DNA from: Verrucomicrobiota bacterium
GTDB taxonomy: Bacteria > Verrucomicrobiota > Verrucomicrobiia > Limisphaerales > UBA9464
Assembly: GCA_017309115.1 (NCBI GenBank)
Contig: JAFLEF010000006.1
Span: 146,993 to 210,992, forward strand
Direction of reading: 5' to 3'
Length of the DNA stretch: 64,000 nucleotides
The notes under the pieces are model-generated. The model saw only the letters and a program-made list of their open reading frames with translations. It did not search any database and was not told where the DNA came from. The translations under genes and the position numbers were made by a program. Of this stretch, positions 46,219 through 63,944 are shown piece by piece; the stretch's first letter is position 1, and the number at the start of each line of letters is the position of its first letter.

Positions 46219-46292
46219 GCGGGCGTAGCTCAATGGTAGAGCGCTAGTCTTCCAAACTAGTTACGAGGGTTCGATTCCCTTCGCCCGCTCCA
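46219..46292 (+). tRNA. tRNA-Gly (anticodon TCC)
   Basis: A 74-nt cloverleaf with encoded CCA: acceptor GCGGGCG / CGCCCGC, anticodon loop with TCC flanked by CTAGT / ACTAG stem pairs, and T-loop GTTCGATTC. It marks the left boundary of the accessory region; a tyrosine recombinase gene follows after 62 bp, the usual position for an element integrated in a tRNA 3' end. Confidence 0.95.
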
Positions 46293-46325: not shown

Positions 46326-46388
46326 ATTCCGAACAAATTCCGAACAGTCCGGGCGTGAATCCGAAGGTTCCGCGGGGAATTCCGAACA
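46326..46388 (+). repeat. Three ATTCCGAACA repeats at the integrase start
   Basis: The 10-mer ATTCCGAACA occurs at 46326-46335, 46337-46346 and 46379-46388, the first two 11 bp apart. This small cluster overlaps the integrase start. Such short direct repeats next to an integrase gene can be arm-type binding sites or operator sites; that role is inferred. Confidence 0.5.
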
Positions 46389-47581
46389 ATCCCGAAGCTG
46401 GGTTGAGCTTTCCTCATGTCGTGACTCGTCGCCATGGAACTGCGACCATCTATCAGTATCAGCGCACTAAAGGCGGGGTAGAGTACACGGAATTCAAGTT
46501 GGCCGCTTTCGATTCCGCAGGTCGGCGCTCGTTTCGTTCCTTTTCAAACTTTAACGAGGCCCTGAAGGAAGCTGAGGCAAGGCTTGCTGCCCTTGGTCAA
46601 GGCTTGGTGGAAGTTACGACCCTCCACGGCCCCACTCGCCTCGATTACCTGAACGCTATTGGACTCCTCCCCCTCGGCCGGACCCTGACGGACGCGGTAA
46701 ACGCGTTGCTCCGCGAACACACCAAACCCAAGGCCGATCCTATCCGGGTATCGGACCTCGTGGCCGCATTTCTGCATGCTAAAGAAGGACGCACTCGTTC
46801 CGGCCGACCGGCATCGGACGCTTACCGCCGAGATCTGGAGTGGCGCCTCTCGCGGTTCGTCGAAACGTTTCAGATGGATATTTCGGACGTTTCCCCGCGC
46901 CAGATTGAAGATTGGATCGAAAAGGTAGCCCCCGGTCCGGTCAACGCCTGGAACATGGTCCGCTTACTCCGAACTCTATTTCGCTGGGCCCAAAAGCGAG
47001 GGCACCTGCCCTCCGGCCCTCTTCCCACTGACTCCCTTGATATCCACAAACCAGTCTCGACGGAGGCGCCCGGAATCCTGACCCCCGCGCAACTCAAGAC
47101 CCTTCTAGCGTCACTCACCCCGAGTATGGTTCCCTACGGTGCCTTGGCAGCGTTCGCGGGGCTCCGCCAAGCGGAAATCCAGAGACTGGATTGGTCCGAA
47201 ATTTCCTTCGATCGGGGGCATATCGAAGTGACCGCCGCCAAAGCGAAGACGGCGGGCAGACGTTTGGTTCCATTATTGCCCGTCTTACGCACTTGGCTAG
47301 AACCCTATCGGGCGACAGGACCCGTGTGCGACCTGTCCAATGTGGCCAAGCCCCTCCTCAAGGCAGCCAAGGCCGCTGGCATCGCCTGGAAACGGAACGC
47401 CCTTCGCCATTCGTACATATCCTACCGGGTAGCCGCGTTGCAGGACGTATCTCGTGTCGCCCTGGAGGCCGGGAATTCACCTGCCATGATTTTTAAGCAC
47501 TACCGCGAACTCGTGACGCCCGAAACCGCCGCAGCTTGGTTCGATGTCCAACCATCGACCAAATCGAAAAACGCGAAATAG
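46355..47581 (+). CDS. Tyrosine recombinase / integrase
   Basis: A 408-residue phage-type integrase. The N-terminal half is a DNA-binding/SAM-like domain (TLTDAVNALLREH, RVSDLVAAFLHAKEGR). The catalytic domain shows the first Arg in AFAGLRQAEIQRL (Arg271), NALRHSYISYR with Arg351 and His352, a Gly-Asn-Ser box and the nucleophile Tyr383 in FKHYREL. The first His of HxLRHS is Asn here, a common variant. It starts at GTG 46355, 62 bp after tRNA-Gly, and reads away from it. It is the likely mover of the accessory region. Confidence 0.92.
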   Translation: MNPKVPRGIPNNPEAGLSFPHVVTRRHGTATIYQYQRTKGGVEYTEFKLAAFDSAGRRSFRSFSNFNEALKEAEARLAALGQGLVEVTTLHGPTRLDYLNAIGLLPLGRTLTDAVNALLREHTKPKADPIRVSDLVAAFLHAKEGRTRSGRPASDAYRRDLEWRLSRFVETFQMDISDVSPRQIEDWIEKVAPGPVNAWNMVRLLRTLFRWAQKRGHLPSGPLPTDSLDIHKPVSTEAPGILTPAQLKTLLASLTPSMVPYGALAAFAGLRQAEIQRLDWSEISFDRGHIEVTAAKAKTAGRRLVPLLPVLRTWLEPYRATGPVCDLSNVAKPLLKAAKAAGIAWKRNALRHSYISYRVAALQDVSRVALEAGNSPAMIFKHYRELVTPETAAAWFDVQPSTKSKNAK

Positions 47582-47644: not shown

Positions 47645-47840
47645 GGTGTGGAGAGTGAAAGAACCTCCGAGCACACCCCTGGTTGACCGGAACAGCACTC
47701 CGAGGAGGGCGAGGCGTTGGGTTTTCAGTCAGAAGTAGGCAAGCTTTCCTGTACGCGGGTAGGGATCGTAGCCGAGATGCAGTCCCTGACGCCAAAGCGT
47801 CTCTTCTGGCACCTCGAGTGGTTGGCGTGTCGAGTTCACC
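47645..47840 (+). repeat. Dispersed repeat, copy A
   Basis: Starts GTGTGGAGAGTGAAAGAACC and ends near GAGTTCACC. The core also occurs at 49280-49432 and 56716-56916, with stretches of 20-50 identical bases to the latter. It lies in the 540-bp gap 47582-48123 behind the integrase, which holds no gene I accept; the ORFs overlapping it are artefacts of the repeat. Confidence 0.85.
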
Positions 47841-48958: not shown

Positions 48959-49195
48959 ATTCATCCTCGTGAACAAAGAAACGCCATCACCGCCACGCCA
49001 CGGCGTAGTACTGTCTCACCGCCCCCGCCCGTAGACCAGGCTCACCTCCAAGGGCGGCCGCTCTTGGCTCTTGGAGTCTCGAAAGTCCGCCACTAAATCG
49101 GCACCAGCTGTCCCGGGTGCCGAGCTTGGCTCTTTGGCGAAACGCGAGTTCCAGACTCCACGTAGGCCGCGCCATAACTGGATGGGCGTTCTGAC

Positions 49196-49432
49196 TTGCC
49201 AAGATTGACGGCCAAGAACCCGGGATGCTCAATGATCCAAGAATAGTTTAGGCCGTCGCATCCCTGTCCTAGGACGAACCGGGTATGGAGAGTGCAAGAA
49301 CTAATGAACCTTCAACCGCACCCCCGGTTGATCGGGACAGCGCCCCGAGGCGGGCAAGGCGTTGGGGTGTTCAGTCAGAGGTAGGCGGGCTTTCCTGTAC
49401 TCGAGCAGGGTTCGTAGCCGAGAAGCCGGTTT
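49196..49432 (+). repeat. Dispersed repeat, copy B
   Basis: Begins TTGCCAAGATTGACGGCC and continues through TTTAGGCCGTCGCATCCCTG and GGCAAGGCGTTGGGGTGTTC to GTTCGTAGCCGAGAAG. It matches copy C at 56630-56916 in the same orientation. It lies in the 690-bp gap 48959-49644, which has no gene, and sits just upstream of the seven-gene operon. Confidence 0.85.
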
Positions 49433-49644: not shown

Positions 49645-49672
49645 TTGACACATGGTAAGATATTCGTACATT
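49645..49672 (+). promoter_or_regulatory. Candidate sigma-70 promoter of the seven-gene operon
   Basis: A perfect -35 TTGACA (49645-49650), a 16-bp spacer and a -10-like TACATT (49667-49672). Transcription would begin at or within a few bases of the ATG at 49679, giving a leaderless message. No Shine-Dalgarno sequence is visible in front of 49679, consistent with this. Confidence 0.45.
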
Positions 49673-49678
49673 CACTTC

Positions 49679-49984
49679 ATGACGACCGTGGATGCTAACG
49701 CGGTGGAAGCGGCGCTCCGGGGAGGGGTGGAGTATCTGCTTCGCGGCAAGAAACCCGCAACTTGGACGCAGAACACCATTCTCACCAAGGATCTTGGATT
49801 AGATTCCGAGGACGGTGTGGAACTGGCTTGCTTCCTGTCCGAATCACTGGGCGTAGAAATCCCCGACATAGTGAATCCCCTGATTGGTGCCGAAAAGGGC
49901 CAGTGTCACCATCGCACCCTCGGAGAAGTGACGGCGCTGATATTAGAGCTATGCATGAAACCGGCAGGAGGGCGATTGTCATGA
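49679..49984 (+). CDS. Acyl-carrier-protein-like protein, first gene of the hypermodification operon
   Basis: A 101-residue protein (from ATG 49679; an ATG at 49652 lies inside the promoter). It resembles acyl carrier proteins around the prosthetic-group helix: DLGLDSEDGVELACFLSESLGVEIPD, broken here as DLGLDSEDGVEL (Ser43) and LGVEIPD; compare the ACP consensus DLGxDSxDxVEL. Ser43 could carry phosphopantetheine. Its stop overlaps the XRE start (ATGA at 49981). Its presence at the head of a nucleotide-modification operon is unexpected; it might carry an acyl or aminoacyl group for the modification, or belong to a regulatory module. No ketosynthase or phosphopantetheinyl transferase is adjacent. 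Confidence 0.7.
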   Translation: MTTVDANAVEAALRGGVEYLLRGKKPATWTQNTILTKDLGLDSEDGVELACFLSESLGVEIPDIVNPLIGAEKGQCHHRTLGEVTALILELCMKPAGGRLS

Positions 49985-50316
49985 GCACCACAACCGATTC
50001 CTTGGCAGACCGGCTCCGAGCGGGCCGCGAGATGGCCGGGTTGTCCCAAGGGCAGGTGGCTGCGTTGCTCAAGTTGCATCGACCGGCAGTCAGCGAAATC
50101 GAAGCAGGGCGTCGGAAGGTTTCCGCCGAGGAGCTTGCGCGGCTCGCAGAGATCTATGGGGTGACCGCCGAGTGGCTGCTCGGGAAATCCCACCAGACCG
50201 AGGACCCGATGGTGGAACTGGCGGCCCGAGAACTATCCAAGCTCGGCCGGGACGACTTGGACCGAGTGATGGGATTGTTGAAGACGCTGCGGCGCAGCAA
50301 AGGGGATGATAAATGA
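49981..50316 (+). CDS. XRE-family transcriptional regulator (helix-turn-helix)
   Basis: A 111-residue regulator with an N-terminal HTH (LRAGREMAGLSQGQVAALLKLHRPAVSEIEAGRRKV) and a short C-terminal helix-rich region. The protein is the typical partner of an ImmA/IrrE protease, which in phage and mobile-element systems (ImmR-ImmA of ICEBs1, for example) cleaves the regulator after DNA damage or cell-cell signalling. It overlaps the genes on both sides by 4 bp (ATGA). Confidence 0.88.
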   Translation: MSTTTDSLADRLRAGREMAGLSQGQVAALLKLHRPAVSEIEAGRRKVSAEELARLAEIYGVTAEWLLGKSHQTEDPMVELAARELSKLGRDDLDRVMGLLKTLRRSKGDDK

Positions 50317-51164
50317 GCTGCGTCCTTGAGGGCCGTGAAGCCTTGAGGGGCGCGCTGGAGCTTCGGCGGCGGCTAGGCATCCCCAGAGAGCGACCGCTCA
50401 ATGTGCTGGATGCCGCTGACCGCTTGGGGCTGCGGGTCCAGTTGGCAGATATCGCAACCTGCGAAGGTATGTTCTCCGCGGACTCCAAAGTCATCCTCCT
50501 CAATCATCGGCGACCCGCCGGTCGACGGGCTTTCACCTGCGGGCACGAACTCGGGCATTGGCATTTTGGCCACGGTGCCTCCTGTGACATGCTCGAATTT
50601 GACCGTCCCGACCAGGAAAAACCAGAAGAGCGGTTGGTAAACGGATTCGCCGGATTTTTCCTGATGCCGAAGCGAGCAGTCGAAGAGGCGTTGGCGCGTC
50701 GAGGTTGGCGCCCGGAGTCACTGACACCGGACCAGACGTACATTGTCGCCGGTCAGATGGGCGTGGGTTACCTGACTCTGATCCTGCACCTTTGCTGGTC
50801 GCTGCAAATGATCTCGCGTTTGCAAGCCGATGAATTGGCATTGCGCTCACCCAGAAGCCTTCGCGAGCAACTTGCCGGGCCGGATGTCGGACCCAATTTG
50901 ATCGTTGCCGACGAAGCTTGGGATGAGCTTCCCATCGATCTTGAGGTGGGTGATTATACGTTGCTGCCAAAAGATGCCGAGCCCTCAGGGTCGCAGCTTC
51001 AGCCGATTAGGGGGCACCGCGGGATGATACTTTTTCGGGCCGCGCGGCCTGGCATCTCGAATGTTCGGACATCCACGTGGACCCGGTTTGTCCGCGTCAG
51101 CCGACGCGAGTTCACCGGGTGGGCCAAATACCGTCATTTCCAAGACCCAGACGATGAAACCTAA
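50313..51164 (+). CDS. ImmA/IrrE-family metalloprotease
   Basis: A 283-residue protein with the zinc metalloprotease motif CGHELGHWHFG (His78, Glu79, His82) and the third-ligand region PEERLVNGFAGFFLMP (Glu105/Glu106). The fold is the IrrE/ImmA type that cleaves an XRE repressor. The C-terminal 110 residues (LREQLAGPDVGPNLIV onward) are an additional domain of unknown function. With the XRE gene next door it forms a putative inducible switch. Its end overlaps the next gene by 11 bp. Confidence 0.9.
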   Translation: MSCVLEGREALRGALELRRRLGIPRERPLNVLDAADRLGLRVQLADIATCEGMFSADSKVILLNHRRPAGRRAFTCGHELGHWHFGHGASCDMLEFDRPDQEKPEERLVNGFAGFFLMPKRAVEEALARRGWRPESLTPDQTYIVAGQMGVGYLTLILHLCWSLQMISRLQADELALRSPRSLREQLAGPDVGPNLIVADEAWDELPIDLEVGDYTLLPKDAEPSGSQLQPIRGHRGMILFRAARPGISNVRTSTWTRFVRVSRREFTGWAKYRHFQDPDDET

Positions 51165-51972
51165 ACTGTTCCAGCACGAAAACCTGACATGCGCTTGGGC
51201 GCAGGCCTTTGTCAGTGTGTTCGACCACCCGCGCCATGGCCCCTTGGTAGTGAACGTCTCCGGTTTCACTAGCGAGTCGCCGGAAGAAAATGCGTCCTTG
51301 GCGGCCACACTCGATGAGATCCTGCGTGCCCAAGAACGACCGGTCACCATCCGGCAGACCGCCATGACCATTTTTCCCTTCGACACATGGGAGCGACGTG
51401 GCCGGCCTGCGGTTGTCCCACTGTCCGAATACTATCTCCAGCACATGTTGCCGCGCCTTAAAGCCCGTAATCATAAGAACAGTCGGGGAACATATTTCCA
51501 AAGAATGGTATCATTTACTGGCGTAAACGGCAAGACCCCCGGCGATTCCCCGATCAAGACGGTGAACCAACTGGAGCACATTGTTCGGATTTGGAACAAC
51601 CACCGGGCGAAAGGCGGGAGCGAGCGAGAGAGCGCCCTTCAAGTCGGGATTTTTGATCCGGCCAAAGACCACACCGGTTCTCCCTTGCAAGGCTTTCCTT
51701 GCCTACAGCAAGTGGGCTTTAGTGTCGACGCCGAAGACAAACTCACGGTGATTGGTTTCTACCCGAGCCAGTATCTGGTGGACCGCGCATATGGCAATTA
51801 CCGGGGCCTTTGCCACCTCGGTGTATTCATGGCCAGGGAGATGAGGTTGCGATTCGGAGGGCTATCATGTTTCGTCGCCCATCCGTTGCCAGGAAGCGTT
51901 CCCAAACGCGAGTTGCATGAACTCTACCGCCAAGCTCGCGCACTGGTGGCAGAAACAGAGGTTAGCGCATGA
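51154..51972 (+). CDS. Divergent thymidylate-synthase-fold protein
   Basis: A 272-residue protein with the C-terminal half of a thymidylate synthase fold: a Cys in FPCLQQVGFSVDAEDKL (Cys183, the nucleophile position), then FYPSQYLVDRAYGNYRGLCHLGVFMAREM, where the usual RSxD...GLPxN is degraded to PSQY...AYGN. The Ser and Asn are kept, but the phosphate-binding Arg and the Asp are missing, so it is unlikely to be a normal thymidylate synthase. It may bind or act on a pyrimidine nucleotide differently or partner with the canonical homologue 1.6 kb downstream. The ATG at 51154 overlaps the ImmA-like stop; the in-frame ATG at 51061 is the alternative. Confidence 0.75.
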   Translation: MKPKLFQHENLTCAWAQAFVSVFDHPRHGPLVVNVSGFTSESPEENASLAATLDEILRAQERPVTIRQTAMTIFPFDTWERRGRPAVVPLSEYYLQHMLPRLKARNHKNSRGTYFQRMVSFTGVNGKTPGDSPIKTVNQLEHIVRIWNNHRAKGGSERESALQVGIFDPAKDHTGSPLQGFPCLQQVGFSVDAEDKLTVIGFYPSQYLVDRAYGNYRGLCHLGVFMAREMRLRFGGLSCFVAHPLPGSVPKRELHELYRQARALVAETEVSA

Positions 51973-52565
51973 GAATCGGGCGATTGATTGTGTTTGAGGG
52001 AGCCGATGGATGCGGCAAGACCACGCTCTCGAAGGGGTTGGCTGAGCGACTTCAACTTCGGGGCGAAAGAGTGGAATGGAATTCTTTTCCAGGGCGAGAA
52101 GCCGGCACCTTGGGAGAGTTGGTCTACCGCCTCCATCACCAGCCTGAACAACTCGGAGTGCGCGGTATCACGCCGCTAAGTTTGCAAGCGATGCATATCG
52201 CTGCTCATCTAGACACGATCTCTCGTCGCCTCCGTCCGGCGTTGGAATCGGGAATTTCGGTCGTGCTTGACCGCTTTTGGTGGTCCACATGGGCCTACGG
52301 TGTTGCCGATAGTATAGATCCAGCGAACCTGGATGCGCTCATCGAAGTCGAACGTCGGCTCTGGCAACCGATCCAACCTGCCGTAGTTTTTGTCGTCCGC
52401 CGGCAAGTTCCCCTTCGTCCCGAGCAATCCGGAAAGTGGACTGTCCTAAATTCGGCCTATGAACGGCTTGGGGCGCGTGAGCATCTGTTTCACCGTGTAG
52501 TAGAGATCTGGAATGAAGGCTCGATTGAAGAATCGGTTGCCAAAATCGAGGTGGCGCTTTCATGA
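51969..52565 (+). CDS. Thymidylate-kinase-like P-loop nucleotide kinase
   Basis: A 198-residue P-loop kinase similar to dTMP kinase: FEGADGCGKTTLSKGLA (Walker A, residues 11-18), the DR motif in VVLDRFWWSTWAYGV, and a C-terminal helix with an ExGS-type end. The loops around the base (FPGREAGTLGE) resemble dTMP kinases (FPRE-type). It likely phosphorylates a dTMP analogue such as 5-hydroxymethyl-dUMP. Starts at ATG 51969, overlapping the previous stop (ATGA), and its own stop overlaps the next start (ATGA at 52562). Confidence 0.88.
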   Translation: MRIGRLIVFEGADGCGKTTLSKGLAERLQLRGERVEWNSFPGREAGTLGELVYRLHHQPEQLGVRGITPLSLQAMHIAAHLDTISRRLRPALESGISVVLDRFWWSTWAYGVADSIDPANLDALIEVERRLWQPIQPAVVFVVRRQVPLRPEQSGKWTVLNSAYERLGAREHLFHRVVEIWNEGSIEESVAKIEVALS

Positions 52566-53647
52566 ACGGCATAGCCGAACAGTCACTACTCGCTCTCCCG
52601 GACGGAAGCCGAGCCAAACCTCGAAAGGTCCGGGAGTATCGGTTTCTTGCCCCGGCCCAACCGACCATCGTCTTCGATAGCTTCTGGCATCTGGCCGCGG
52701 AACGTCAGCGCATCTTCTTCGCGCGACTGCGCGGCGAGCCGTCCCCGTGGAGCCGCGACCCGATCCTCCAAGCGCACAAGTTCACGAACGCATACCGTGC
52801 CTCCGACCGCGTGAGCCAATACCTGATCCGTGAGGTAATTTATAAAGGGAGCCAGTCGCCGGAGGAAGTCACCTTCCGGACGTTGCTGTTCAAGTTGTTC
52901 AACCGCATCGAGACCTGGGAGCGCCTAAGCCAACATCTCGGCCCTTTGACTTGGGATGAGTTCAAGCCAGATGCCTGCACCGCGGTGCTCGACGCGGCGA
53001 TGGCTGAAGGTGAACGGGTCTATTCGGCGGCCTACATCATGCCCTCAGGCGGACGTCAGGCCAAGCTAGCCCGGAAGCACACGATGCACCTGTCCCTTTT
53101 AGGCCGAATGATGCGCGAAGACCTGCCGGGACAGCTCGAGCGGGCAAGCAACATGGAGGAGGCGTTCACGATCCTACGCGGCTACCCGACTATCGGAGAT
53201 TTCCTCGCCTACCAATATGTCACGGACTTGAACTACGGTCCGCATTTGGATTTCACCGAGATGGAGTTCGTAATTCCCGGACCGGGCGCGCGTGACGGCA
53301 TCCATAAGTGCTTTTCGGACACGGGCGGCCTCACTGAACCCGAGTTGATCCGATTGGTTGCCCAGCACCAGCGAGATTGCATGAAGGTGGCGGAGGTTGA
53401 GTTCAGAGACCTTTGGGGTCGGCCGCTCCAGTTGATTGATTGCCAGAACTTGTTCTGCGAGGTCAGCAAATATGCCCGAGTGGCCCACCCGGAGGTGGCG
53501 GGACGAACTGGCCGCACCCGGATCAAGCAGTTGTTTTCGCCCGGTCGTTCGCTTCTAACGCCGTGGTATCCGCCAAAATGGAAGCTGAACAGCCGCATCA
53601 AGGAGGACTTCCCCGATGTTCCGAACCGCTCAAGCAACAAGCGCTGA
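52562..53647 (+). CDS. Putative 5-hydroxymethyl-dU DNA kinase / thymine hypermodification enzyme
   Basis: A 361-residue protein whose central helical region FDSFWHLAAERQRIFFARL, then FTNAYRASDRVSQYLIREVIY and LLFKLFNRIETWE, matches from memory the helical family seen in the predicted 5-hmdU DNA kinase and alpha-glutamyl/putrescinyl-thymine pyrophosphorylase group of phage DNA hypermodification. Conserved C-terminal blocks are HLDFTEMEFVIPGPGARDG and LIDCQNLFCEVSKYAR. It has no P-loop. If right, it acts on hydroxymethylated thymine in DNA or nucleotide form. It overlaps the kinase upstream (ATGA) and the TS gene downstream by 32 bp. Confidence 0.7.
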   Translation: MNGIAEQSLLALPDGSRAKPRKVREYRFLAPAQPTIVFDSFWHLAAERQRIFFARLRGEPSPWSRDPILQAHKFTNAYRASDRVSQYLIREVIYKGSQSPEEVTFRTLLFKLFNRIETWERLSQHLGPLTWDEFKPDACTAVLDAAMAEGERVYSAAYIMPSGGRQAKLARKHTMHLSLLGRMMREDLPGQLERASNMEEAFTILRGYPTIGDFLAYQYVTDLNYGPHLDFTEMEFVIPGPGARDGIHKCFSDTGGLTEPELIRLVAQHQRDCMKVAEVEFRDLWGRPLQLIDCQNLFCEVSKYARVAHPEVAGRTGRTRIKQLFSPGRSLLTPWYPPKWKLNSRIKEDFPDVPNRSSNKR

Positions 53648-54623
53648 CGGCCTCTGGCTCCAGGCCCACGAATGGTTCAAGAATGGCACCGCCGTAGTTT
53701 CGGAGGGTGGCCGCGATGGTCGCACGCGGGAGGTTCTTCATGCTGCCCTCAGCCTATCCGATCCTCGTCAACGTTGGATTGCTTCCCGCGAACCAGCCAT
53801 GAACCCCGCGTTCGCATTGGCCGAGGTTGTGTGGATTGTTCAAGGACGTGAGGATTCGGAGTTTGTGAACTATTTCAATCCGCGTCTGCCCGACTTTGCA
53901 GGTGACGGTCCGACCTATCACGGCGCGTATGGTCATCGACTCCGCCAAAGGCTGGGGGGCGATCAGCTAAAGCAAGCCGCCGCGGCGCTCCATTCAAACC
54001 CCGGCAGCCGCCAGGTGGTGCTCCAGATTTGGGATGCAGCCAGGGATTTGCCCTTAGGGGATGGCCATCCGCGCGCTAAAGATATCCCCTGCAATGTCGC
54101 GGCGATGCTTAAAGTTCGGTATGGCCGGTTGGAATGGACGCAGGTGATGCGCAGCAATGATTTAGTCCGTGGCTTACCTCACAACATCGTGCAATTCACC
54201 TCCCTCCAAGAAGTCATGGCTGGTTGGCTCGGTTTGGAGGTCGGGAGCTACAATCACCTGAGTGACAGTCTCCATATCTATGAGAGCGAATTCCCAAGCG
54301 TCGATAAGGTTCGGGGCCTTTCCTTGCCGGCGAACGTAGAAGACCTCCGCCTATCGCTTCCTCAATCGGAAGCGGTCTTCGGTCAGTTGGAAGAAAACGT
54401 GGCGCAAATGGTTGACACGCGAAATTCTCCAGATGAGTTAATTCGACAGCTGTCCAGTTCAGGTCTCGCCACTCCGTATCGGAACTGGCTGGCAATTCTT
54501 ACGGCCGACGCTTGTCGCAGAAGGAACGAGGCGACGGCGGCGAATGACGCGGCTGAAAGATGCTCCAACCCTTCATTGCGGTTCTTATGGCAACGCTGGT
54601 TGGACCGTCGCAAATGCCGATAG
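53616..54623 (+). CDS. Thymidylate synthase / dUMP hydroxymethylase homologue
   Basis: A 335-residue member of the TS superfamily with a full active site: Cys159 in DIPCNVAAML, Arg179-Ser180 and Asp182 in MRSNDLVRGLPHN, Asn190 in the base-recognition position, and His220/Tyr222 in DSLHIYESE. All spacings match E. coli TS (Cys146, Arg166, Asp169, Asn177, His207, Tyr209). Asn rather than Asp at the Asn177 position favours dUMP over dCMP. Whether it adds a methyl or a hydroxymethyl group cannot be decided from motifs. A strong ribosome-binding site AAGGAGG (53601-53607) precedes ATG 53616. Confidence 0.88.
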   Translation: MFRTAQATSADGLWLQAHEWFKNGTAVVSEGGRDGRTREVLHAALSLSDPRQRWIASREPAMNPAFALAEVVWIVQGREDSEFVNYFNPRLPDFAGDGPTYHGAYGHRLRQRLGGDQLKQAAAALHSNPGSRQVVLQIWDAARDLPLGDGHPRAKDIPCNVAAMLKVRYGRLEWTQVMRSNDLVRGLPHNIVQFTSLQEVMAGWLGLEVGSYNHLSDSLHIYESEFPSVDKVRGLSLPANVEDLRLSLPQSEAVFGQLEENVAQMVDTRNSPDELIRQLSSSGLATPYRNWLAILTADACRRRNEATAANDAAERCSNPSLRFLWQRWLDRRKCR

Positions 54624-54976
54624 ACTCAACCAGGGTTACTGGCGTAAGCCAATTCGGGCGGCCACCCGCAACCTGATCTATACGCAAGTAGCTGATCTAG
54701 AATTTGGAGGCGGCGGGAGTTGAAGCCAAACCAGGCACTTCGGGACGGCGACGTAAACATGCGTCACAGGCCCGTAAATAGGGCGCAGAGTGCGCAATCC
54801 ACTTTTCCGGCACTCGGTCGTTATTCCGAACCGTTCCGAAGAAAGTCTGTTCGGTTTTGTTCGGTAAACTCTGCCCGACCGAAGGCCGCGCCCGCCCCGC
54901 GTTCGGAACCTTTCGCAACCTGCGGCCCGAGAGGTTTCAAGCGCCAACCGCTTCACCTGTAGACAGAGGTTGCCGC
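54624..54976. other. Intergenic region after the operon, with clustered CCGAAC words
   Basis: About 350 bp without a gene. Between 54820 and 54912 the hexamer CCGAAC (either strand) recurs several times, including ATTCCGAAC and TGTTCGG twice, similar to the repeats at the integrase start. No terminator or tRNA-like attachment core was found. Confidence 0.45.
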
Positions 54977-54998
54977 AGTATGCTAAATGTAGCATACT
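54977..54998 (+). promoter_or_regulatory. Perfect palindromic operator of higBA
   Basis: AGTATGCTA-N4-TAGCATACT, a perfect 9-bp inverted repeat centred 12 bp before the higB ATG (55000). Autoregulatory HigA operators have this form, so it is most likely the antitoxin binding site. Confidence 0.75.
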
Positions 54999-54999
54999 G

Positions 55000-55383
55000 A
55001 TGGTGGATGAGTCGAAACCCGAAAAGCCGCTCTTCTGGATTGGCCGGTCCTATGACGACCTGTTGGACTGCCCGGAGGAGGTCCGCCGCACCTTCGGATT
55101 CGCGCTGGGCCTGGCCCAACAGGGCGGCAAGTTCGTCGATGCCAAGCCGCTCAAAGGCTTCGGCGGGGCCGGGGTACTCGAAGTCGTCGAGGACTGGCAG
55201 AGCGACACGTTTCGCTGTGTTTACTCGGTCAGATTCGCCGGGGCGGTCTAGGTGCTGCACACCTTTCAGAAGAAGTCCAAGACCGGTAGCAAAACCCCGA
55301 AGCAGGAGATCGATCTGGTGAAGGTACGGCTGAAAGCCGCCGAAGAGCATTACCAGGAATGGATCAAAAAAGGAACTCAATGA
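55000..55383 (+). pseudogene. higB: HigB-type (RelE/phage Gp49-like) toxin gene, interrupted by an in-frame amber codon
   Basis: The frame reads MVDESKPEKPLFWIGRSYDD and DCPEEVRRTFGFALGLAQQG, a HigB/Gp49 toxin. It meets TAG at 55249-55251 exactly where the family has Tyr (VYVLHxFQKKS), then continues VLHTFQKKSKTGSKTPKQEI and EHYQEWIKKGTQ to TGA 55381-55383. Only one base change (TAC or TAT to TAG) is needed, so this is a recently disabled toxin, unless the amber is suppressed. The original stop overlaps higA by 4 bp (ATGA). Confidence 0.85.
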
Positions 55384-55706
55384 AAACCACCATCCGCCCT
55401 AGCAGCGCCAACGTTTTCGCCGATCTCAAGCTGCCCGACGCCGACGAACTCCACGCGAAGGCGCAGATCGCCTACCAGATTTGCCGCATCCTCGAAGAGC
55501 GCAAACTCACGCAGAAGGCGGCGGCCCAGCTGCTCGGCATCGACCAGCCCAAAATCTCCGCGCTGCTCCGCGGCAAGCTCGAAGGGTTCTCCTCCGACCG
55601 CCTGTTCCGCTTTCTCAATGCCCTCGACCGGGACATCGAGATTGTCATCAAGCCCATCGGCAAACGCAGCGGCCTCCCCGGCATCCGCGTCCTGGCCCTC
55701 GCGTGA
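55380..55706 (+). CDS. higA: HigA-type antitoxin (XRE HTH)
   Basis: A 108-residue antitoxin starting MKTTIRPSSANVFADLKLPD and containing an HTH (RKLTQKAAAQLLGIDQPKISALLRG). This layout, with the DNA-binding domain in the C-terminal half, matches the antitoxins of the HigBA/Gp49 pair. It is intact and follows the broken toxin, overlapping its stop by 4 bp. Transcription from the palindromic operator upstream should be autoregulated. The gap to 55952 has no gene; an inverted repeat CCTGAT/ATCAGG lies at 55743-55764. Confidence 0.88.
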   Translation: MKTTIRPSSANVFADLKLPDADELHAKAQIAYQICRILEERKLTQKAAAQLLGIDQPKISALLRGKLEGFSSDRLFRFLNALDRDIEIVIKPIGKRSGLPGIRVLALA

Positions 55707-55888: not shown

Positions 55889-55918
55889 TTGCGCATTCCC
55901 TGGCATCTGTGGTACACT
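55889..55918 (+). promoter_or_regulatory. Candidate promoter of parDE
   Basis: TTGCGC (55889-55894), an 18-bp spacer and TACACT (55913-55918), 33 bp before the parD ATG. Both hexamers are only partial matches to consensus. Confidence 0.4.
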
Positions 55919-55951
55919 GCTTCCAACGACCGATTTTGGAGCAAAGCCATC

Positions 55952-56230
55952 ATGAACATCTCGATCACCCCGGAACTGGAAAAATTCGTTCAGCAGGAAG
56001 TCAAAACCGGCCTCTACCAGTCGGCCAGCGAAGTCATTCGCGCCGCCCTCCGCCGCCTCAAGGAGGACAAGGAGCGCAAACCGCGCTTCATGGTTTCAAC
56101 CAAGGAGGAACTGCAGGAGAAACTGCTCGAAGGCATCGAACAACTGGACCGCGGCGAGGGGATTCCCGCCGATCAGGTCTTCGCCGAACTCAAAACCCGC
56201 AGCGCCCAGCGCCGCCGTCGTCATGCCTGA
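55952..56230 (+). CDS. parD: ParD-type antitoxin
   Basis: A 92-residue antitoxin with an N-terminal ribbon-helix-helix (MNISITPELEKFVQQEV and YQSASEVIRAALRRLKED), the ParD type, followed by a C-terminal toxin-binding tail rich in charged residues (EELQEKLLEGIEQLDRG). It overlaps parE by 8 bp. The in-frame longer start upstream is rejected because the family begins at MNISI. Confidence 0.92.
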   Translation: MNISITPELEKFVQQEVKTGLYQSASEVIRAALRRLKEDKERKPRFMVSTKEELQEKLLEGIEQLDRGEGIPADQVFAELKTRSAQRRRRHA

Positions 56231-56546
56231 GGTACTCGTTTCCCCAGCCGCCCGCGCCGACTTGATCGCCCAATGGGATTTTTTCGCCGCCGAAGTGGGC
56301 AACGCGGCCTTGGCTGACCGCTTTGTCGGCTGCGCCCAAGCTACCTTCAACACGCTTGCCCGCAGTCCTGGACTCGGGCGCCTTCGCCCGTTCCCGATTC
56401 CCAAAACCGAAGGTCTCCGTTCGTGGAAAGTCGCCGATTTTCCCAAACATCTGGTCTTCTACCGTAAACTTCCCGACAACGCCGGCATCGAAATTGTCCG
56501 CGTCATTCACGGCGCGCGAGATCTGGAAGCCCAGTTCGGCAAGTGA
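56223..56546 (+). CDS. parE: ParE-type toxin
   Basis: A 107-residue RelE/ParE fold toxin. The pattern VLVSPAARADLIAQWDFFA, RSPGLGRLRPFPIPKTEGLRSWKV and LVFYRKLPDNAGIEIVRVIHGARDLE is that of ParE, which in characterised cases inhibits DNA gyrase. Unlike the neighbouring higB it is uninterrupted, so an active pair is expected. It starts inside parD (8-bp overlap). Confidence 0.9.
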   Translation: MPEVLVSPAARADLIAQWDFFAAEVGNAALADRFVGCAQATFNTLARSPGLGRLRPFPIPKTEGLRSWKVADFPKHLVFYRKLPDNAGIEIVRVIHGARDLEAQFGK

Positions 56547-56629
56547 ACTGGGCGGACCAACTTCGCCTCCGCTGATGGTGGGTCTTGCTGCACTGGGCCG
56601 GTCATCCGGCAGGAGTTCGGCGTACTGAC

Positions 56630-56916
56630 ATGCCAAGATTGACGGCCAGGAAGGGGCACCGCTCAAATGCCCACACATAGTTTAGGCCGTCGCATCCCTG
56701 ACCGAGGACGAACCGGGTGTGGAGAGTGAAAGAACCTCCGAGCACACCCCTGGTTGACCGGAACAGCGCTCCGAGTCGGGCAAGGCGTTGGGGTGTTCAG
56801 TCAGAAGTAGGCAAGCTTCCCTGCACACCAGCAGGGTTCGTAGCCGAGAAGCGGTCTCAAACGCCAAAGCACTTTTCCTGGCACCACGAGTGCTATGGTT
56901 GGCGCGTCGGGTTCAC
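56630..56916 (+). repeat. Dispersed repeat, copy C
   Basis: The longest copy, starting with CATGCCAAGATTGACGGCC and including GTTTAGGCCGTCGCATCCCTG, GTGTGGAGAGTGAAAGAACC, GGCAAGGCGTTGGGGTGTTC and a terminal segment GGCACCACGAGTGCTATGGT. It lies in the gap 56547-57058, which holds no gene. ORFs across it are rejected as artefacts of the repeat. Confidence 0.85.
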
Positions 56917-57058: not shown

Positions 57059-57460
57059 TCAACGACCACTCCTCCACAACTCAACCCGGTCCCATATCAA
57101 CATATAAATGTAAACATTCCAAACTACCCAGCATAAGACATAAACACTTGATAGCGCACCAACAAAACCATGCTGCAGTTGCAACATAGATGAAAAGTCG
57201 TAAAAAACAAAAAGGTATAGTATTCCTGATATGCTATTACAAAGCATCAATGCAAATACCACAATCCAGCCACGTCCACTCCACACAAGAGCCATAATCG
57301 GCCAGCAAACAAACATGACTCCCCACGGTGCACCAAACGATGCAATAGCTAGATTAACAGGATTGCTAATTGAAATTGCACCGCCCAATAAATAAGTAAT
57401 GACACTAAACAATATTCCGAAGTAAACTTTCATGGTCCTATTTGTTTGCTGATCACTCAT
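57059..57460 (-). CDS. Small membrane protein, candidate immunity protein of the RHS toxin
   Basis: A 133-residue protein of about four transmembrane helices (VYFGILFSVITYLLGGAI, GVMFVCWPIMALVW, WIVVFALMLCNSISGILYLFVF, VYVLCWVVWNVYIYMLIW). It lies directly downstream of the giant RHS gene on the same strand and overlaps its stop by 8 bp, the usual arrangement of an RHS toxin and its immunity gene. It is AT-rich compared with the backbone. The ATG at 57460 is used; ATG 57433 is possible. Homology is not known to me. Confidence 0.6.
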   Translation of the reverse strand: MSDQQTNRTMKVYFGILFSVITYLLGGAISISNPVNLAIASFGAPWGVMFVCWPIMALVWSGRGWIVVFALMLCNSISGILYLFVFYDFSSMLQLQHGFVGALSSVYVLCWVVWNVYIYMLIWDRVELWRSGR

Positions 57461-60400
57461 CGATCGTTTTCTGATACTCGTGAGAGTAGTACCATGCGAC
57501 ATGGTCCGGCCCGAAGGCGTTTATGGTAGCGGAGTAGACATTTCTAGATCTCCCAACTTCACTGCCCTTCTTGCGCAAGAGAGAACTCAAAGTCCCCCGA
57601 ATCTCATCCCAAGGTAATTTACGTCCACAATAAGCATACGACCCGACGGGAATCATCGCGTAAATTGCCTGTGCCGCATTTAGAGCTAAATTTGGGCGAA
57701 GAAAGGGGTAGTCTGGGCGGCTTCCAAAAGGCCCGTGCCCTATTAAAGGCAGCTGGGGCTTGGTATAATGCCTCCATTCTGGGTGAACCTCCAGAGAATT
57801 CACAAACCTAGTTTGGTCTGCCGAAAAACCATTGTGGGCAAAAGTGTCGGCGAAAGTATGCAAATTTGCACCAAGTGTTAATAAGTCGGACTCATTATTG
57901 CCCCGCAGCATACTTAACGAATATTGCAAGGCATTCAACGCTTGCGATTCTGCTATCGGTGTGCCAAGAAAACGGGTAGATCCCGGAAAGTGGTACATTC
58001 GCAATAGGTCGTAATCACCCGTGGGGCTCCAAAATCCATGCATTCCTAACCGTATGGGATCAGTTAAAGGATCGTTATCGACATGCTGAGACCAGTTTGC
58101 AATCGCTTTTGAATCAGGACCGTATCCAGAGGCTAAAAACAAATACTGAATAATGTAGAAATGAAAGTCGATTTGGTAGAGGCCATTGGGATCAACAGCG
58201 TTAGCGGGGTGGTTTCCGACAAACGAATACATAGAATCATCATCATGTTCCCCAGATGGGTCCCTACTGATCCACCGTCCCAAGGTTGGTTGGTAATACC
58301 GGTATCCGAAGTATAGAAGCCCGGATTCTGTTTCGGCGGCTTTTGTCGAGAACCTAAAGGGATTGGCGGCAGCCCGGGGGCCAGTCATCCTCAAAGTTTC
58401 GCCAAAGGTCGAGTAGTCGTAATTGGCGGTGGTTGCACCGCTTGCCCCATCCACCAGCCCGATTACGTTGCCACTACCGTCGTAAGCTGCGAATTGGGCA
58501 TCTCCGCCGACGGGCTTTACAAACACCAACCCTCCCACCCCTCCGGCACCCTCCAGTGATCCGCTGAGGTCGCTGCCCCAAAGATAGCTCTGCAACAAGG
58601 CGTTGGCACTCAGTCCATTAAGTTCTGCCACTACATTCCACCCATCCAACACGAACCTGACGTCGCTAACCATTGTGTACGTGCTGTTGTTCCCGTTCGA
58701 CACTCTCTTCCGTATCCGCCGCCCTTGGTCGTCGTAATCGCACTGCAACCGCTGACCGGGCACTCCGGCAACATAAGCCGCCGCTACGGTGTCCATCTGT
58801 ACTAAGCGGTTCTCGGCATCCCAAGTGTAAGTCCACCGGCCATCGCCAGTCAGGTTGCCGTCGAAATCGTACGTGAAGGATTCTGGCGTGGGCGGCACGT
58901 ATAGCTTCCGGCCGGTGGCACTGCCGCCACCGCTGGTGGTAACGTCCACATTCTGCCAAGCCGGCGCACCGCCGCTGATTGTGAGCTCATGGCGGAAATA
59001 CTCTCCTCTCCGCCAAGCAGTCGTGCCGTTAACGGTGACACTACTGCTCGCCGCCGCTAATCCAAGGATGTCTGCGTAGCGACTGCCGCTCGAGGACCGA
59101 CTGCTGTACTGGTTGAGGCTGTTCACCCCATAGGTTTCGAGCCGAAGGTTCGCACCATCAGCATCGCCACCACGCTTGGCGTTGCTGCGGTTACCGATGG
59201 TGTCGAAGGTATACTCGAACTGCTGACCCGGGACCGGCGACCCGTCGCCGAAATACTGTTTGCCGGAAACGACCTGCCCAAGGCTATCGTAGGTATAAAC
59301 CCTGACGCTGCCGTCCGCGAACATTTGCCGCGTACGTTGATTCACATCGTTGTACTGATAGCCCGTTCCAAGCGGCAGCGAACCGCCCAACTGCGGCTGG
59401 GCCGTGACGCCTTGAAGCCGGTTAAGGAAATCGTAACTACGCGTCGTTACCAACCGCGTCGTCGTGCCTTGCTTCATCGTCACTGACTCGGCAAGCGGAC
59501 TATTCGCCAGGTACGTGTAGGTAGCGGAATAGGTGCCATCGCTGACGTTCGTCAATCGCGAAGCCCCGTCATAACCGAGCGAGTAGCCCAGGGCCGCAGG
59601 GCTCGAGTCCAACGAGAAGGTCGAACGCCGCAACAGACTATCATAGGTCAGGGTGGTCGTACGTCCCGCCAACGGGTGGGTGCCGGCGTAGGATTCTGTC
59701 AATGGATTGTGTTGCAGATCGAAAGTGCGGTTCACCGACCACGTCCCACCCAATGCTACGGAGGAAACCGTGGTCTGACATCCATGTCGGTCGTAGCCGT
59801 AGGTGATGTCCGGAGTGAGGCTGCTGTCATTGTTGTAGGTTAGCGTCTCCACATCGCCCGCCTTGTTGTAGGTCCAAACCGCCTCCACTCGCGGACTACC
59901 CCGCGCCCACTGCCGCTTCTGCAACCGTCCCGAAGGCAGGTAAGTATAATCCGGCCCCCTATTATCGGCGAAACGCTTGTTATTCAACCAGCCGCGGTAC
60001 TCATCGTAATTCCATGTAGTGGTGTCAGCTGTGCCGGGACTAACCCAATTTCCGCTGAAGTTGCGGTAGGTCTTCTGGGTCTTTAGCCGCCCTTGTCCAT
60101 CATAGGCATATTCCACCGGATACGTCTGGGAGCCCCAAGATCGCTTTAGCAATCCCGTCGGGTAGTAATCGCTTAAGGTAACTGTGCCGTCGGGTCGCGT
60201 CACCTGCTTTACCCGACCCAGATTGTCATACTCCGTCTGCGTGGTCTGTGCCGGCTGGCCATTGCCGGGCGGGGGCGTGGTCACCGCCCTTACCTGATCG
60301 GCGTTATCGTAAGTAACGACAGTGGATCCGTTGCGGGCATCAGTAACCTTCCATTGACGCCCATGGGCATCATAAATATATGATACCGCACCAATCTGCG

Positions 60401-63400
60401 TTCCGGTCGAGAGCCTCTGCGTCGATGACTGCAATCGGCCATTTAAAAAGATGTTGAGCGTGTACGAACCATCGGGCGCGGTGGTCGTGACGTTGCGATA
60501 ACCACCGCCAGGATATTGCGTAACCGTGGCTGAAGGATTGCCAACACCCACTGTCGTCTGCCAGGACCGCAGGCCATCTGCCGAAACCTCGCTTACGCCC
60601 GTTACCACGGGCGTTCCATTGTTCATAAAAGTGTATTCATATGTTGTTGTCCGCCGCACTGTCGTACCGTAGGCCGGAGCGACCTCGCTCACAGTCTTGG
60701 AAATGCGGTCGGTTCCGGAATAGTCAATGAGGCCGTTCAAGTTCATGTCCACAGCCGTCACGGCGTTTGTTAAATTAGGTCGCGAATAGAGAGTTGTGAT
60801 TCCGTCCGGATCAACCGACCTAACGACTCGACCTTGATTATCGTAATAAGAGGTATTGGCAGCATTGTCTGCCAGGGTTCCCGGCGTGTTGTCGGAGTAA
60901 ATTGTCTTGTAACTGCGTCCAAGAAAATCTGTCAGCGTCGCGGACCATTCGTTAGTTCCTGTGGTCGTGCCGGCTACCGTCAGTTTTACGGTAAGCCGAT
61001 AAGGCACCTGAAATACGCCATCCGTCAAAATGCCGTATGCATAGCGGGTGGGACTTTCACCATTGCCCGACGTCTCCTTCAGTTGCCCATCCGGAAAGTA
61101 CGATTCGATTCGAGTTAACTCCTCCGGCAAACCTACGGCTTCGGTAGTAGTGCGAGTCCGGACTCCTCCGATCCAAGATTCTGTATAAGTCGTAGTAGCA
61201 CCCCGTTGATCAGTCGAGGAGTCCAACTCTCCTGCGCTGTTGTAGTGGTTCAGGTTCAGGGTAATTATTGATCCATCTGTCCCTTGGCGCCGCGTCCGCC
61301 AGACGTAACCAGCCGCGTCATAGTCAGTCCAGTGCGTAATTCCAACTGTCGTCTCCGATATTCGCCTTTTTAAGGAGTCGTATCCGTAGGTAGTAACTGT
61401 GCCATCCCGCGCGGTAAAGGAGTCCAACAAGCAGCAACTGTAGCTGTACAATTCAGTCGTTCCGTCCAGATAGGTCAGAGTTTGCGCCCGTCCGCGGCTG
61501 TCGAAATTGCTGTAGGTGCGTTGCTCTACCACTAAGTTACTTTCGAAGTCTCTAGTTGTGCTGGAGAGAAGTCGGCCATCCCTACTGACAACAGTGGTTT
61601 GTTTAGAGCCGGCAACCAGAGCGGTCTTGGCACCGTTCGGCTGACCGCGGTAAACGGTCGTCGTCAAGTCGGTCGCTGTATCTACGTAACTGTAAAACGC
61701 CATGGTCTGATCAGGGTAGAGTACACTCTTGACCCGGCCGGCGAAGGTGCCTGTGGTGTAAAAGTCGGTGGTTGTGACTAAAGCTGCAGGATCTGTAAGC
61801 GGTGCGCCTTCATACGGTAATAGGTATACCTTGATCCAATCGACAATCGCTGGGCTGGCCAATCGATGAACCACCCGCTTGGTCTGCCGAACCGCTACTC
61901 CCTCGACATACTCCGTCTCACTACGCGCAAGCTCAGGCCATAAGGATCCGTCATCATTATCATAATCCTCAGTGTCGTAGGAATACTCAGTACGTCGACA
62001 GAGATTAGGATCATTTTGAAAATCTGCGTAAGTGTGGCTTCCGAAGCTCTCGGAACGGCTCGCAAGCCGTTGCCCGGACCACGTGTACTTCGTCCATCGG
62101 CCAGATGGGTGTTGTTCGAGTTTAATCTTCCAGTTCTCGTAGGTGTAGCTCGTGCTTACTTCTTCAGTTCCCACGCCTACTCGGCTCTCGATCGGATTTA
62201 CATAGGCCACGCCACCATTGGCCGCCTGCGGGACGGACCATACCTGCGAGTCGCGATATACAATCTGATCCGTCAGCGGATCCAACCGGTCGCGGATTAC
62301 CGTAAGCGTTTTTGTCATAGAGTCCCAAACAGAGGATTCGCGTTGTTTACTCGCAGCGTCCGGGGCAAGGAGAGTCCAGCTCTTGTTTCCAGGGCTATAG
62401 CTAAACTGACTCGTTTTAATTAATGGATTACTTGATGGACCCAGGATTTCTGAAATATTGATTTGATCATAGTTTCCGCCACTCGCCAATGGAGCGGTCA
62501 CCAGCCAAACCGCAACTTCGGTGGCGCCATTGGTCACAAATAGCCCATTTACTTTGGTAAGGGCGATCTGCGACGCCGGAAATATATGTACCACCAAGCT
62601 TGAGGCGGACACGGTGCGAACGTGAGCCAAGTACTGCCTCGAACGCGCCTGCCTGAGGGCGCCCGCAGTATCATTGATAACCTCGGTGTCCGGGGCCGGC
62701 CCCACCACCTCCAGTGAGCCAGCAGTGGCGCTTTTTGAACTTCCCTGCGGAGTGTGAAACCTCACTGATCCGGCCGACTTGCCGTAACCAGTGAGACCAA
62801 GTGGAATCGTTAGGTTTACCCCGCCTTGGAGGCTGACCCCGCCTCCGGTCTGTTCGCTACCACAACAGCCAGGCTCCCCACTCGCAATTGCCATACTGTT
62901 GGGGCCATTGCAATTATCGACAGCTCCATCGGGGCAGACACGGGCGTCGGTGATGTACTTGATCGCGTCCTCGCAGGGCAGCGACAACTCATAGCGCGGC
63001 GACACTACAACGGCCCCCGTTCCCGTGGTTTGCCATTGCTTGGACACCGTGCTTATTCCACCGTCTAAGTAAATTGTAACCTCGGTCCAGCGGACCGTAT
63101 AGCTCACCAGAGGGCTGGTTGGAAACTCGAACTTATACCACATACGGCGGACCCACGCTTGTTGATGGTTCTCACTTTTTAGAGTGTAGGCGTTGCCAAT
63201 GGATCCCCAGATTTGGGGATCATTGAGCTGCGCTTCAGTGAGAGCGGCGCGTTCCTTGGCAATTTCCACCATTCTACAGGTGGTAAATTCGTCAGAAAGG
63301 GTGATTGTCTGATTACAGGAGTAAGGCTTAGTGCCCCCTATCACTAAACTGTACACCGATGTTGTCGGTGGCGTAACTGTTGTGGTTCCCCCCGGTTTAA

Positions 63401-63944
63401 AACTGAACCCGGTCATCGTGAGTGGATTACTGTAATCATGCCTACCTAATGCAGGCCCGTCTGAATATGTAGAGTCTACAAAATAGAACCCGACTCTTGA
63501 CCCGGCATTATTATCTTGCCAGGAGGCAATACAATTGACCATTTGGAGCGAGGCTCCTTTGGTATCTTGATACCTATGTACCGGTCCTGGCGAGGCATCT
63601 TCGCTCCAATCTTGTCCCTCAGATCCATTGTGCCAAGCCTTCCGGAAATCCTCAACATAACCGTTATAGCTGGCAGTTCCACTTGCGGAACAGGACGAAA
63701 AACCCGTTTCAGTATATTCGTCTTGTATCAATTCTTTGGTATAGCTAACAGCGTCATGAACATCCTCAGTTCGGTTACCGGTACCGTAATAGGTTCCTTG
63801 GATAGGAGCTTCGCCAGTAAGGTATTCCGTTACCGTGTAATCTGAGGCCACCCAACCCGTTTCACGATATTTCTGGCTCCGGATGAGTTTGTGTGGGTAG
63901 GAAGGGAGGGGAAACCTTCGGTTGTGGGGAGCCTTGGTGCGCAA
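57453..63944 (-). CDS. Giant RHS/YD-repeat protein with C-terminal HxxxDxxxH putative toxin domain
   Basis: A protein of about 2160 residues made of many YD/RHS repeats of the form YDxxGRxxxxxxxxG (for example YDNQGRVVRSVDPDG and YDGQGRLKTQKTY). It ends with a typical RHS core, YRYYQPTLGRWISRDPSGE, and PNGLYQIDF, after which the variable tail begins (about residue 1925). The tail contains LHTFADTFAHNGFSA with HxxxDxxxH and GHGPFGSRPDYPF, suggesting a zinc hydrolase such as the phospholipase C/P1 nuclease-like group (DUF6765-type, by memory). The frame stays open to the window edge and the true 5' end is unclear; TTG 63944 is the furthest start. Confidence 0.88.
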   Translation of the reverse strand: MRTKAPHNRRFPLPSYPHKLIRSQKYRETGWVASDYTVTEYLTGEAPIQGTYYGTGNRTEDVHDAVSYTKELIQDEYTETGFSSCSASGTASYNGYVEDFRKAWHNGSEGQDWSEDASPGPVHRYQDTKGASLQMVNCIASWQDNNAGSRVGFYFVDSTYSDGPALGRHDYSNPLTMTGFSFKPGGTTTVTPPTTSVYSLVIGGTKPYSCNQTITLSDEFTTCRMVEIAKERAALTEAQLNDPQIWGSIGNAYTLKSENHQQAWVRRMWYKFEFPTSPLVSYTVRWTEVTIYLDGGISTVSKQWQTTGTGAVVVSPRYELSLPCEDAIKYITDARVCPDGAVDNCNGPNSMAIASGEPGCCGSEQTGGGVSLQGGVNLTIPLGLTGYGKSAGSVRFHTPQGSSKSATAGSLEVVGPAPDTEVINDTAGALRQARSRQYLAHVRTVSASSLVVHIFPASQIALTKVNGLFVTNGATEVAVWLVTAPLASGGNYDQINISEILGPSSNPLIKTSQFSYSPGNKSWTLLAPDAASKQRESSVWDSMTKTLTVIRDRLDPLTDQIVYRDSQVWSVPQAANGGVAYVNPIESRVGVGTEEVSTSYTYENWKIKLEQHPSGRWTKYTWSGQRLASRSESFGSHTYADFQNDPNLCRRTEYSYDTEDYDNDDGSLWPELARSETEYVEGVAVRQTKRVVHRLASPAIVDWIKVYLLPYEGAPLTDPAALVTTTDFYTTGTFAGRVKSVLYPDQTMAFYSYVDTATDLTTTVYRGQPNGAKTALVAGSKQTTVVSRDGRLLSSTTRDFESNLVVEQRTYSNFDSRGRAQTLTYLDGTTELYSYSCCLLDSFTARDGTVTTYGYDSLKRRISETTVGITHWTDYDAAGYVWRTRRQGTDGSIITLNLNHYNSAGELDSSTDQRGATTTYTESWIGGVRTRTTTEAVGLPEELTRIESYFPDGQLKETSGNGESPTRYAYGILTDGVFQVPYRLTVKLTVAGTTTGTNEWSATLTDFLGRSYKTIYSDNTPGTLADNAANTSYYDNQGRVVRSVDPDGITTLYSRPNLTNAVTAVDMNLNGLIDYSGTDRISKTVSEVAPAYGTTVRRTTTYEYTFMNNGTPVVTGVSEVSADGLRSWQTTVGVGNPSATVTQYPGGGYRNVTTTAPDGSYTLNIFLNGRLQSSTQRLSTGTQIGAVSYIYDAHGRQWKVTDARNGSTVVTYDNADQVRAVTTPPPGNGQPAQTTQTEYDNLGRVKQVTRPDGTVTLSDYYPTGLLKRSWGSQTYPVEYAYDGQGRLKTQKTYRNFSGNWVSPGTADTTTWNYDEYRGWLNNKRFADNRGPDYTYLPSGRLQKRQWARGSPRVEAVWTYNKAGDVETLTYNNDSSLTPDITYGYDRHGCQTTVSSVALGGTWSVNRTFDLQHNPLTESYAGTHPLAGRTTTLTYDSLLRRSTFSLDSSPAALGYSLGYDGASRLTNVSDGTYSATYTYLANSPLAESVTMKQGTTTRLVTTRSYDFLNRLQGVTAQPQLGGSLPLGTGYQYNDVNQRTRQMFADGSVRVYTYDSLGQVVSGKQYFGDGSPVPGQQFEYTFDTIGNRSNAKRGGDADGANLRLETYGVNSLNQYSSRSSSGSRYADILGLAAASSSVTVNGTTAWRRGEYFRHELTISGGAPAWQNVDVTTSGGGSATGRKLYVPPTPESFTYDFDGNLTGDGRWTYTWDAENRLVQMDTVAAAYVAGVPGQRLQCDYDDQGRRIRKRVSNGNNSTYTMVSDVRFVLDGWNVVAELNGLSANALLQSYLWGSDLSGSLEGAGGVGGLVFVKPVGGDAQFAAYDGSGNVIGLVDGASGATTANYDYSTFGETLRMTGPRAAANPFRFSTKAAETESGLLYFGYRYYQPTLGRWISRDPSGEHDDDSMYSFVGNHPANAVDPNGLYQIDFHFYIIQYLFLASGYGPDSKAIANWSQHVDNDPLTDPIRLGMHGFWSPTGDYDLLRMYHFPGSTRFLGTPIAESQALNALQYSLSMLRGNNESDLLTLGANLHTFADTFAHNGFSADQTRFVNSLEVHPEWRHYTKPQLPLIGHGPFGSRPDYPFLRPNLALNAAQAIYAMIPVGSYAYCGRKLPWDEIRGTLSSLLRKKGSEVGRSRNVYSATINAFGPDHVAWYYSHEYQKTIDE

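Follow-up and report, generated by a model that had tools for sequence, protein, structure and literature searches.

An accessory bacterial operon joins an acyl carrier protein and a repressor–protease pair to enzymes that point to a modified pyrimidine in DNA

To what end does a bacterium keep enzymes of the kind with which phages modify their own DNA, beside a carrier protein and a repressor–protease pair? The question is raised by seven genes, named P1 to P7 in order, which lie between 49652 and 54623 on the + strand of a 64,000-nt stretch of a Verrucomicrobiota contig (JAFLEF010000006.1, positions 146,993 to 210,992), hereafter called the window (Table 1). The initial annotation had read the genes as one overlapping operon, and its coordinates, strand and six overlaps (4, 4, 11, 4, 4 and 32 bp) were confirmed; the start codon is ATG in all seven. 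On balance, the operon appears to be an inducible, accessory and horizontally moving conflict module whose product, a modified pyrimidine, would serve to mark or spoil DNA, probably that of phages. Its gene content and families, their conservation, the fusions and swaps, the plasmid locations and the phage synteny are observed; its substrates, its induction, its target DNA and the defence role are what we infer. From its enzymes, the operon would produce a nucleotide with a 5-hydroxymethyl pyrimidine, which is then changed further in DNA.

To find related loci, one genome per species was scanned with an alignment of P4, and the best 80 of 84 relatives were kept. Going by their record titles, these 80 loci carry twelve phylum labels, with two loci unlabelled, and many of them are metagenome bins, for which single labels may be wrong. 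Gene content was counted in the 58 loci with enough flank, leaving out 22 with short flanks, and the counts are not phylogenetically independent. The near-constant core is the acyl carrier protein (ACP), XRE, ImmA, P4 and P6: P6 was present in 58 loci, XRE and ImmA in 56 each, ACP in 55 and P4, as the query, in 58. With this set recurring in distant bacteria, the gene arrangement goes beyond chance. The other genes vary, with MazG–MazG_C in 41 loci, a gene for AcpS nearby in 35, a kinase in 20 (14 of them fused to P6), dCTP deaminase in 15, P7 in 11 and a radical SAM protein in four. P5 and P7 form one interchangeable module outside the core, and MazG–MazG_C or radical SAM can replace P7. All 11 loci with P7 also had a kinase no more than 6.5 kb away, and one of them had MazG_C. 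In a tree of the 58 P4 rows, the labels for the end enzyme needed at least 10 changes, compared to a mean of 18.1 after shuffling, and the P7 label needed five changes, four of which were forced by well-supported branches. Such swapping of a hydroxymethylase, MazG–MazG_C and radical SAM around a near-fixed core suggests that there is a family of different DNA bases to find. Where the radical SAM protein adjoins the operon (locus L071, 10912–11955, with relatives in L045, L052, L062, L068, L094 and L105), the L071 protein had pVip as its best PADLOC model (1.5e-14, for this one protein) next to the generic PF04055, and an identity as a prokaryotic viperin was not upheld past the superfamily level.

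P7 belongs to the thymidylate synthase (TS) family (PF00303, 7.5e-20) and matched MilA, a CMP 5-hydroxymethylase, at 1.1e-28, compared to 5.3e-11 for the best true TS in the PDB. It retains the catalytic Cys together with the PCN and RSND motifs and the Asn, and by its sequence P7 would be a hydroxymethylase-type enzyme with an intact active site, as the initial annotation proposed. The alignment placed Ser and Asn in P7 where MilA has Ala and Asp, which, under the known specificity rules, points to deoxyuridylate as the substrate. A duplicate of the housekeeping TS was rejected as an identity for P7, since the genome has its own ordinary ThyA elsewhere (409 bits against 72) and MilA is nearer to P7. 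In two Opitutaceae loci (L031 and L032), an Asp replaces the uracil-reading Asn of P7; by the TS rule, this change would predict a cytosine hydroxymethylase.

P6 matched PF18723 (1.4e-109) over residues 36–313 with 366 bits against a cut-off of 25, which places the gene in the hypermodification family to which it had been likened. P5 is a match to PF02223 (8.5e-13), and P6 alone had no match to a P-loop family. As a 5-hydroxymethyldeoxyuridine (5-hmdU) DNA kinase, P6 would have its P-loop kinase part either separate, as P5, or fused, as in relatives. P5–P6 fusions occurred in 19 of the 80 loci and a P6–MazG_C fusion in L090, and these fusions suggest that the partner of P6 is a kinase or MazG_C. 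Structures were predicted for P4 and P6, and the folds nearest to that of P6 were a phage 5-phosphomethyldeoxyuridine (5-PmdU) glycinyltransferase, DUF2419 enzymes and HhH DNA glycosylases. The probable substrate of P6 is a modified pyrimidine within DNA. At loci L005/L013, L029, L052 and L098, P6 lies in two open frames, which are either decayed copies or true two-piece genes.

The parallel to the phage pathway, which the initial annotation had drawn, was found in the Pseudomonas phages PaMx11 and Ab18, where a kinase, a PF18723 and a TS-type gene share the order and orientation of P5, P6 and P7. P6 is 27% identical to gp50 of PaMx11 (E 4e-22), which is in turn 87% identical to Ab18 ORF13, itself a PF18723 match at 9.8e-40. 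The TS-type enzyme of PaMx11 and P7 share 44.6% identity in an alignment that covers 57% of P7, and P5 matched gp49 of PaMx11 weakly (E 0.001). The gp49 gene (L122, 2218–2787) is annotated as a terminase small subunit, is P-loop kinase-type by Pfam and matched HMUDK_HMUD1 only below the cut-off. The enzyme in structure 8z2m is another PaMx11 protein, more distant than gp50, and gp46, taken for it by number, gave only a local match to P6 (E 0.016). In contrast to the bacterial operon with its ACP, XRE, ImmA and P4, the phages add an FAD-oxidoreductase, an acetyltransferase, other genes and a DNA polymerase. Among 50,697 phage records searched at E up to 1e-5, the P6 query found 491 and the P7 query 1,127, ordinary thymidylate synthases included.

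P4 had no Pfam match and matched TIGR03283 at 2.5e-8, which is below the cut-off, but its predicted structure is a TS fold. Cys183, the catalytic Cys of that predicted fold, and Asn215 did not vary in any of the 57 aligned rows, and a profile alignment to the P7 family (probability 71, E 3.7e-5) showed another motif in place of the RSxD of true TS. The P4 profile and the P6 profile found no match among PDB sequences. The P4 query, run against the 50,697 phage records with E up to 0.01, gave no match, and a pattern scan of IMG/VR, which misses distant relatives, returned one relative, on a contig (L134) that also carries ACP, XRE, ImmA, P6 and MazG_C. With P4 absent from the phage records and this single relative in IMG/VR, the operon as a whole was rejected as an integrated phage cassette.

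The single-sequence matches of P1 to ACPs all fell below the cut-offs, including TIGR00517 (1.4e-5), and a profile built from nine members of the P1 family, the one from the window among them, matched ACP structures, with 2.8e-9 as the best value. The carrier serine, residue 52 when the protein is read from 49652, is kept in 79 of 81 aligned rows. The ATG at 49679 is a more likely start than that at 49652 because the ACPs of relatives begin at about that point. The promoter candidate at 49645–49672 overlaps the first of the two ACP starts and is not above chance, as three promoter-type sites were found on both strands against 1.9 ± 1.4 expected. No AcpS gene was found between 40 and 64 kb of the window, and no gene cluster at the related loci was a constant candidate for loading the ACP. 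A carrier protein, an AcpS gene near many loci, which is typical of small-molecule pathways, MilA as the nearest relative of P7 and ThsB-like TIR genes beside some loci are all compatible with a free nucleoside or nucleotide, an antimetabolite or a signal, made via the carrier protein much as MilA serves in nucleoside-antibiotic synthesis. We consider such a product improbable, given that there is no constant loading, ketosynthase or export gene, that gene clusters outside the named families occur in no more than nine loci each, and that P6 is in every locus with flank.

P2 matched HTH_3 (2e-14) and P3 matched PF06114 (5.9e-14), and their best PADLOC models were capH (5.7e-17) and capP (2.4e-17), the regulator pair of CBASS. 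Neither a cyclase nor an effector of CBASS was among the families of the operon, however, and P3 aligned to CapP over residues 19–130 only. By analogy with CapP/CapH and PprI/DdrO, the protease P3 would presumably inactivate the repressor P2 upon DNA damage or infection. P7 would then convert dUMP to 5-hydroxymethyl-dUMP, which P5 may lift towards the triphosphate; in addition or instead, P5 and P6 may be the two halves of a 5-hmdU kinase. New DNA would thereby gain 5-hydroxymethyluracil and then phosphomethyluracil, and P4 with the phosphopantetheinylated ACP might make or deliver a further group. Because much of the DNA made during infection is that of the phage, it is this DNA that would be marked or spoiled by the modified base. 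A more daring version, which we regard as unlikely, has P4 and P6 join the phosphopantetheine arm of the holo-ACP, free or loaded with an acyl or aminoacyl group, to activated 5-phosphomethyluracil in DNA, so that invading DNA is tagged with the group or with the carrier itself. If true, this would be a carrier-protein-dependent modification of DNA bases used in immunity.

The same switch might instead belong to a response to DNA damage, in which the operon removes or tolerates dUTP or oxidised thymine (5-hydroxymethyluracil) and any defence is incidental. Deinococcus PprI, an ImmA/IrrE-type protein, is reported to be a sensor of DNA damage (PMC10904395). The predicted P6 fold is glycosylase-like, and some variants of the operon carry a uracil-DNA glycosylase (UDG)-family protein, dCTP deaminase or MazG. 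These three families act on dUTP, dUMP or uracil in DNA. By family, however, P7 makes rather than removes a hydroxymethylpyrimidine, and the distribution of the operon is patchy, which makes a repair role very improbable. Of 59 near relatives, only the genome of the window had PF18723. In a set of 387 genomes taken from across the phylum, 12 had PF18723 and four, including that of the window, had the P4–P6 operon, with five weak P6 matches left out. Three loci from this set (L111, L113 and L114) have P4 and P6 with XRE and ImmA, and the ACP was found in the latter two; L112 has P6 and P7 alone in the stretch taken, and L115 and L116 have a weak P6 match with no P4 there. By this patchy presence the operon is accessory, and its XRE and ImmA families agree with the repressor–protease switch described earlier.

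The P6 form of the operon occurs on plasmids of cyanobacteria, rhizobia and streptomycetes, and conjugative typing was obtained for 7 of the 22 plasmid records that have P6 and for 10 of the 17 that have P4. On some plasmids a UDG-family protein can take the place of P6: L019 and L135 to L137 carry ACP, XRE and ImmA with a papain-like protein, P4, the UDG-family protein (short in L135) and MazG_C, and have no P6 nearby. The papain-like protein is also present on plasmid L021, which retains P6. On plasmids from Sphingosinicella (L022) and Erythrobacter (L023), P6 was seen in a second context, between exonuclease/DnaQ and DNA polymerase III alpha genes and without ACP or P4.

What weighs against a conflict module that makes a modified pyrimidine is that a P7-type gene is missing from 47 of the 58 loci and a P5-type kinase from 38, and that self-protection has its best argument in the location on plasmids, where DNA polymerase III genes in some cases lie beside the operon or the P6 gene. 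The absences weaken the pathway of the initial annotation, for which homologous operons without TS and kinase genes had been named as a threat, and the pathway reading survives because P4, as the query, and P6 are in all 58 loci and MazG–MazG_C is in 41. Under self-protection, the operon would modify the DNA of its own mobile element against host restriction, and the XRE–ImmA pair would time this modification to excision or transfer. The many relatives on plasmids and their conjugative typing fit this explanation, as do the integrase-like gene that adjoins a tRNA-Gly in the window and the use of these enzymes by phages to modify themselves; ImmA-type pairs are reported to control integrative elements (PMC10233336). 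However, none of the genes close to the operon in the window was recognised as a polymerase gene, at least three loci were placed on chromosomes by record title or length (L050, L060 and L075), the UDG variant would attack DNA modified in this way, and the neighbouring genes match many defence families. We therefore favour an anti-phage role and hold self-protection to be rather unlikely.

The defence families were counted with PADLOC. For 120 of 422 eligible neighbour genes from 52 loci, 132 families were matched at E up to 1e-10 (25 of them listed), compared to seven families for 101 control genes from the phylum of the window, a small control from one phylum, and families are not genes. The neighbours include ThsB-like TIR, Nmad2, AbiEii and a type I restriction subunit. 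Within the operon, P1, P4, P6 and P7 matched no model in PADLOC-DB (2023) at E up to 1, and the operon thus lacks the matches for all components that mark a known system there.

Already known are the pathway in phages, the pair of regulators and, in general terms, defence by modification of nucleotides. If the conflict-module reading is true, what the operon adds is phage DNA-disguise chemistry taken over by bacteria, placed under an infection-type switch and combined with a carrier protein. The Pfam names HMUDK_hel and MazG_C presumably come from the Iyer/Burroughs group, who may have seen such operons already. No description of ACP, XRE, ImmA, the TS-fold protein and PF18723 as a conserved unit was found in a search that did not cover Iyer et al. 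2013 and Burroughs et al. 2015. The initial statement that no described system has this exact set needs qualifying, since a 2026 paper (PMC13092281) reports defence systems of E. coli, validated there, in which domains of a thymidylate synthase and of a 5-hydroxymethyluracil kinase occur. These bacterial systems hold enzymes of the same classes, and their protection against phages was measured; in contrast to the operon here, the term 'acyl carrier' does not occur in the main text of the paper. A figure legend there also names a dNMP kinase and nucleotide-modification-associated (NMAD) domains, and shared operons are not discernible in it. A search for an E. coli homologue by DNA similarity with a Colwellia query found none. 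On an E. coli IncHI1B plasmid (L026, NZ_CP016183.1), metallophosphoesterase, weakly TS-like, MazG and TS genes are consecutive, and metallophosphoesterase–TS fusions were seen near the ACP operon in L064, L092 and L099 by Pfam and in L077 and L081 by clustering.

Table 1. Genes of the operon and neighbouring features in the window
Feature	Position	Strand	Assignment
P1	49652-49984	+	Acyl carrier protein; probable start 49679
P2	49981-50316	+	XRE-type repressor; top PADLOC model capH
P3	50313-51164	+	ImmA/IrrE metalloprotease, HELGH motif; top PADLOC model capP
P4	51154-51972	+	Divergent thymidylate-synthase-fold protein
P5	51969-52565	+	dTMP-kinase-like P-loop kinase
P6	52562-53647	+	PF18723 (HMUDK_hel) protein
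P7	53616-54623	+	TS family, pyrimidine 5-hydroxymethylase type
tRNA-Gly (tcc)	46219-46292	+	Adjoins integrase-like gene, upstream of operon
Integrase gene	46355-47581	+	Tyrosine-recombinase-like; PF00589 1.1e-5, slightly below curated cut-off
Toxin-antitoxin pair	54970-55251, 55359-55706		Gp49-type and HTH_37; directly downstream of operon
Toxin-antitoxin pair	55889-56230, 56223-56546		ParD-ParE; directly downstream of operon

The 3′ end of the tRNA-Gly has no second exact copy in the genome and two inexact copies on other contigs. An attR copy was rejected, as the only exact match is the tRNA itself, and for want of it the right end of an island could not be placed. No DNA polymerase or phage structural gene was recognised at about 46.3–57.5 kb, where the initial annotation's statement of their absence holds; the check was limited to that stretch, in which three small genes had no family match. 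A direct repeat of up to about 240 bp lies on either side of the operon (47657–47780, 49185–49426 and 56619–56852) and matches the genome at six places, of which three are on other contigs; possible roles are as a substrate for recombination or as a miniature element. Further downstream, on the − strand at 57453–63944, a 2163-aa protein looked YD-repeat/RHS-like as judged by eye.

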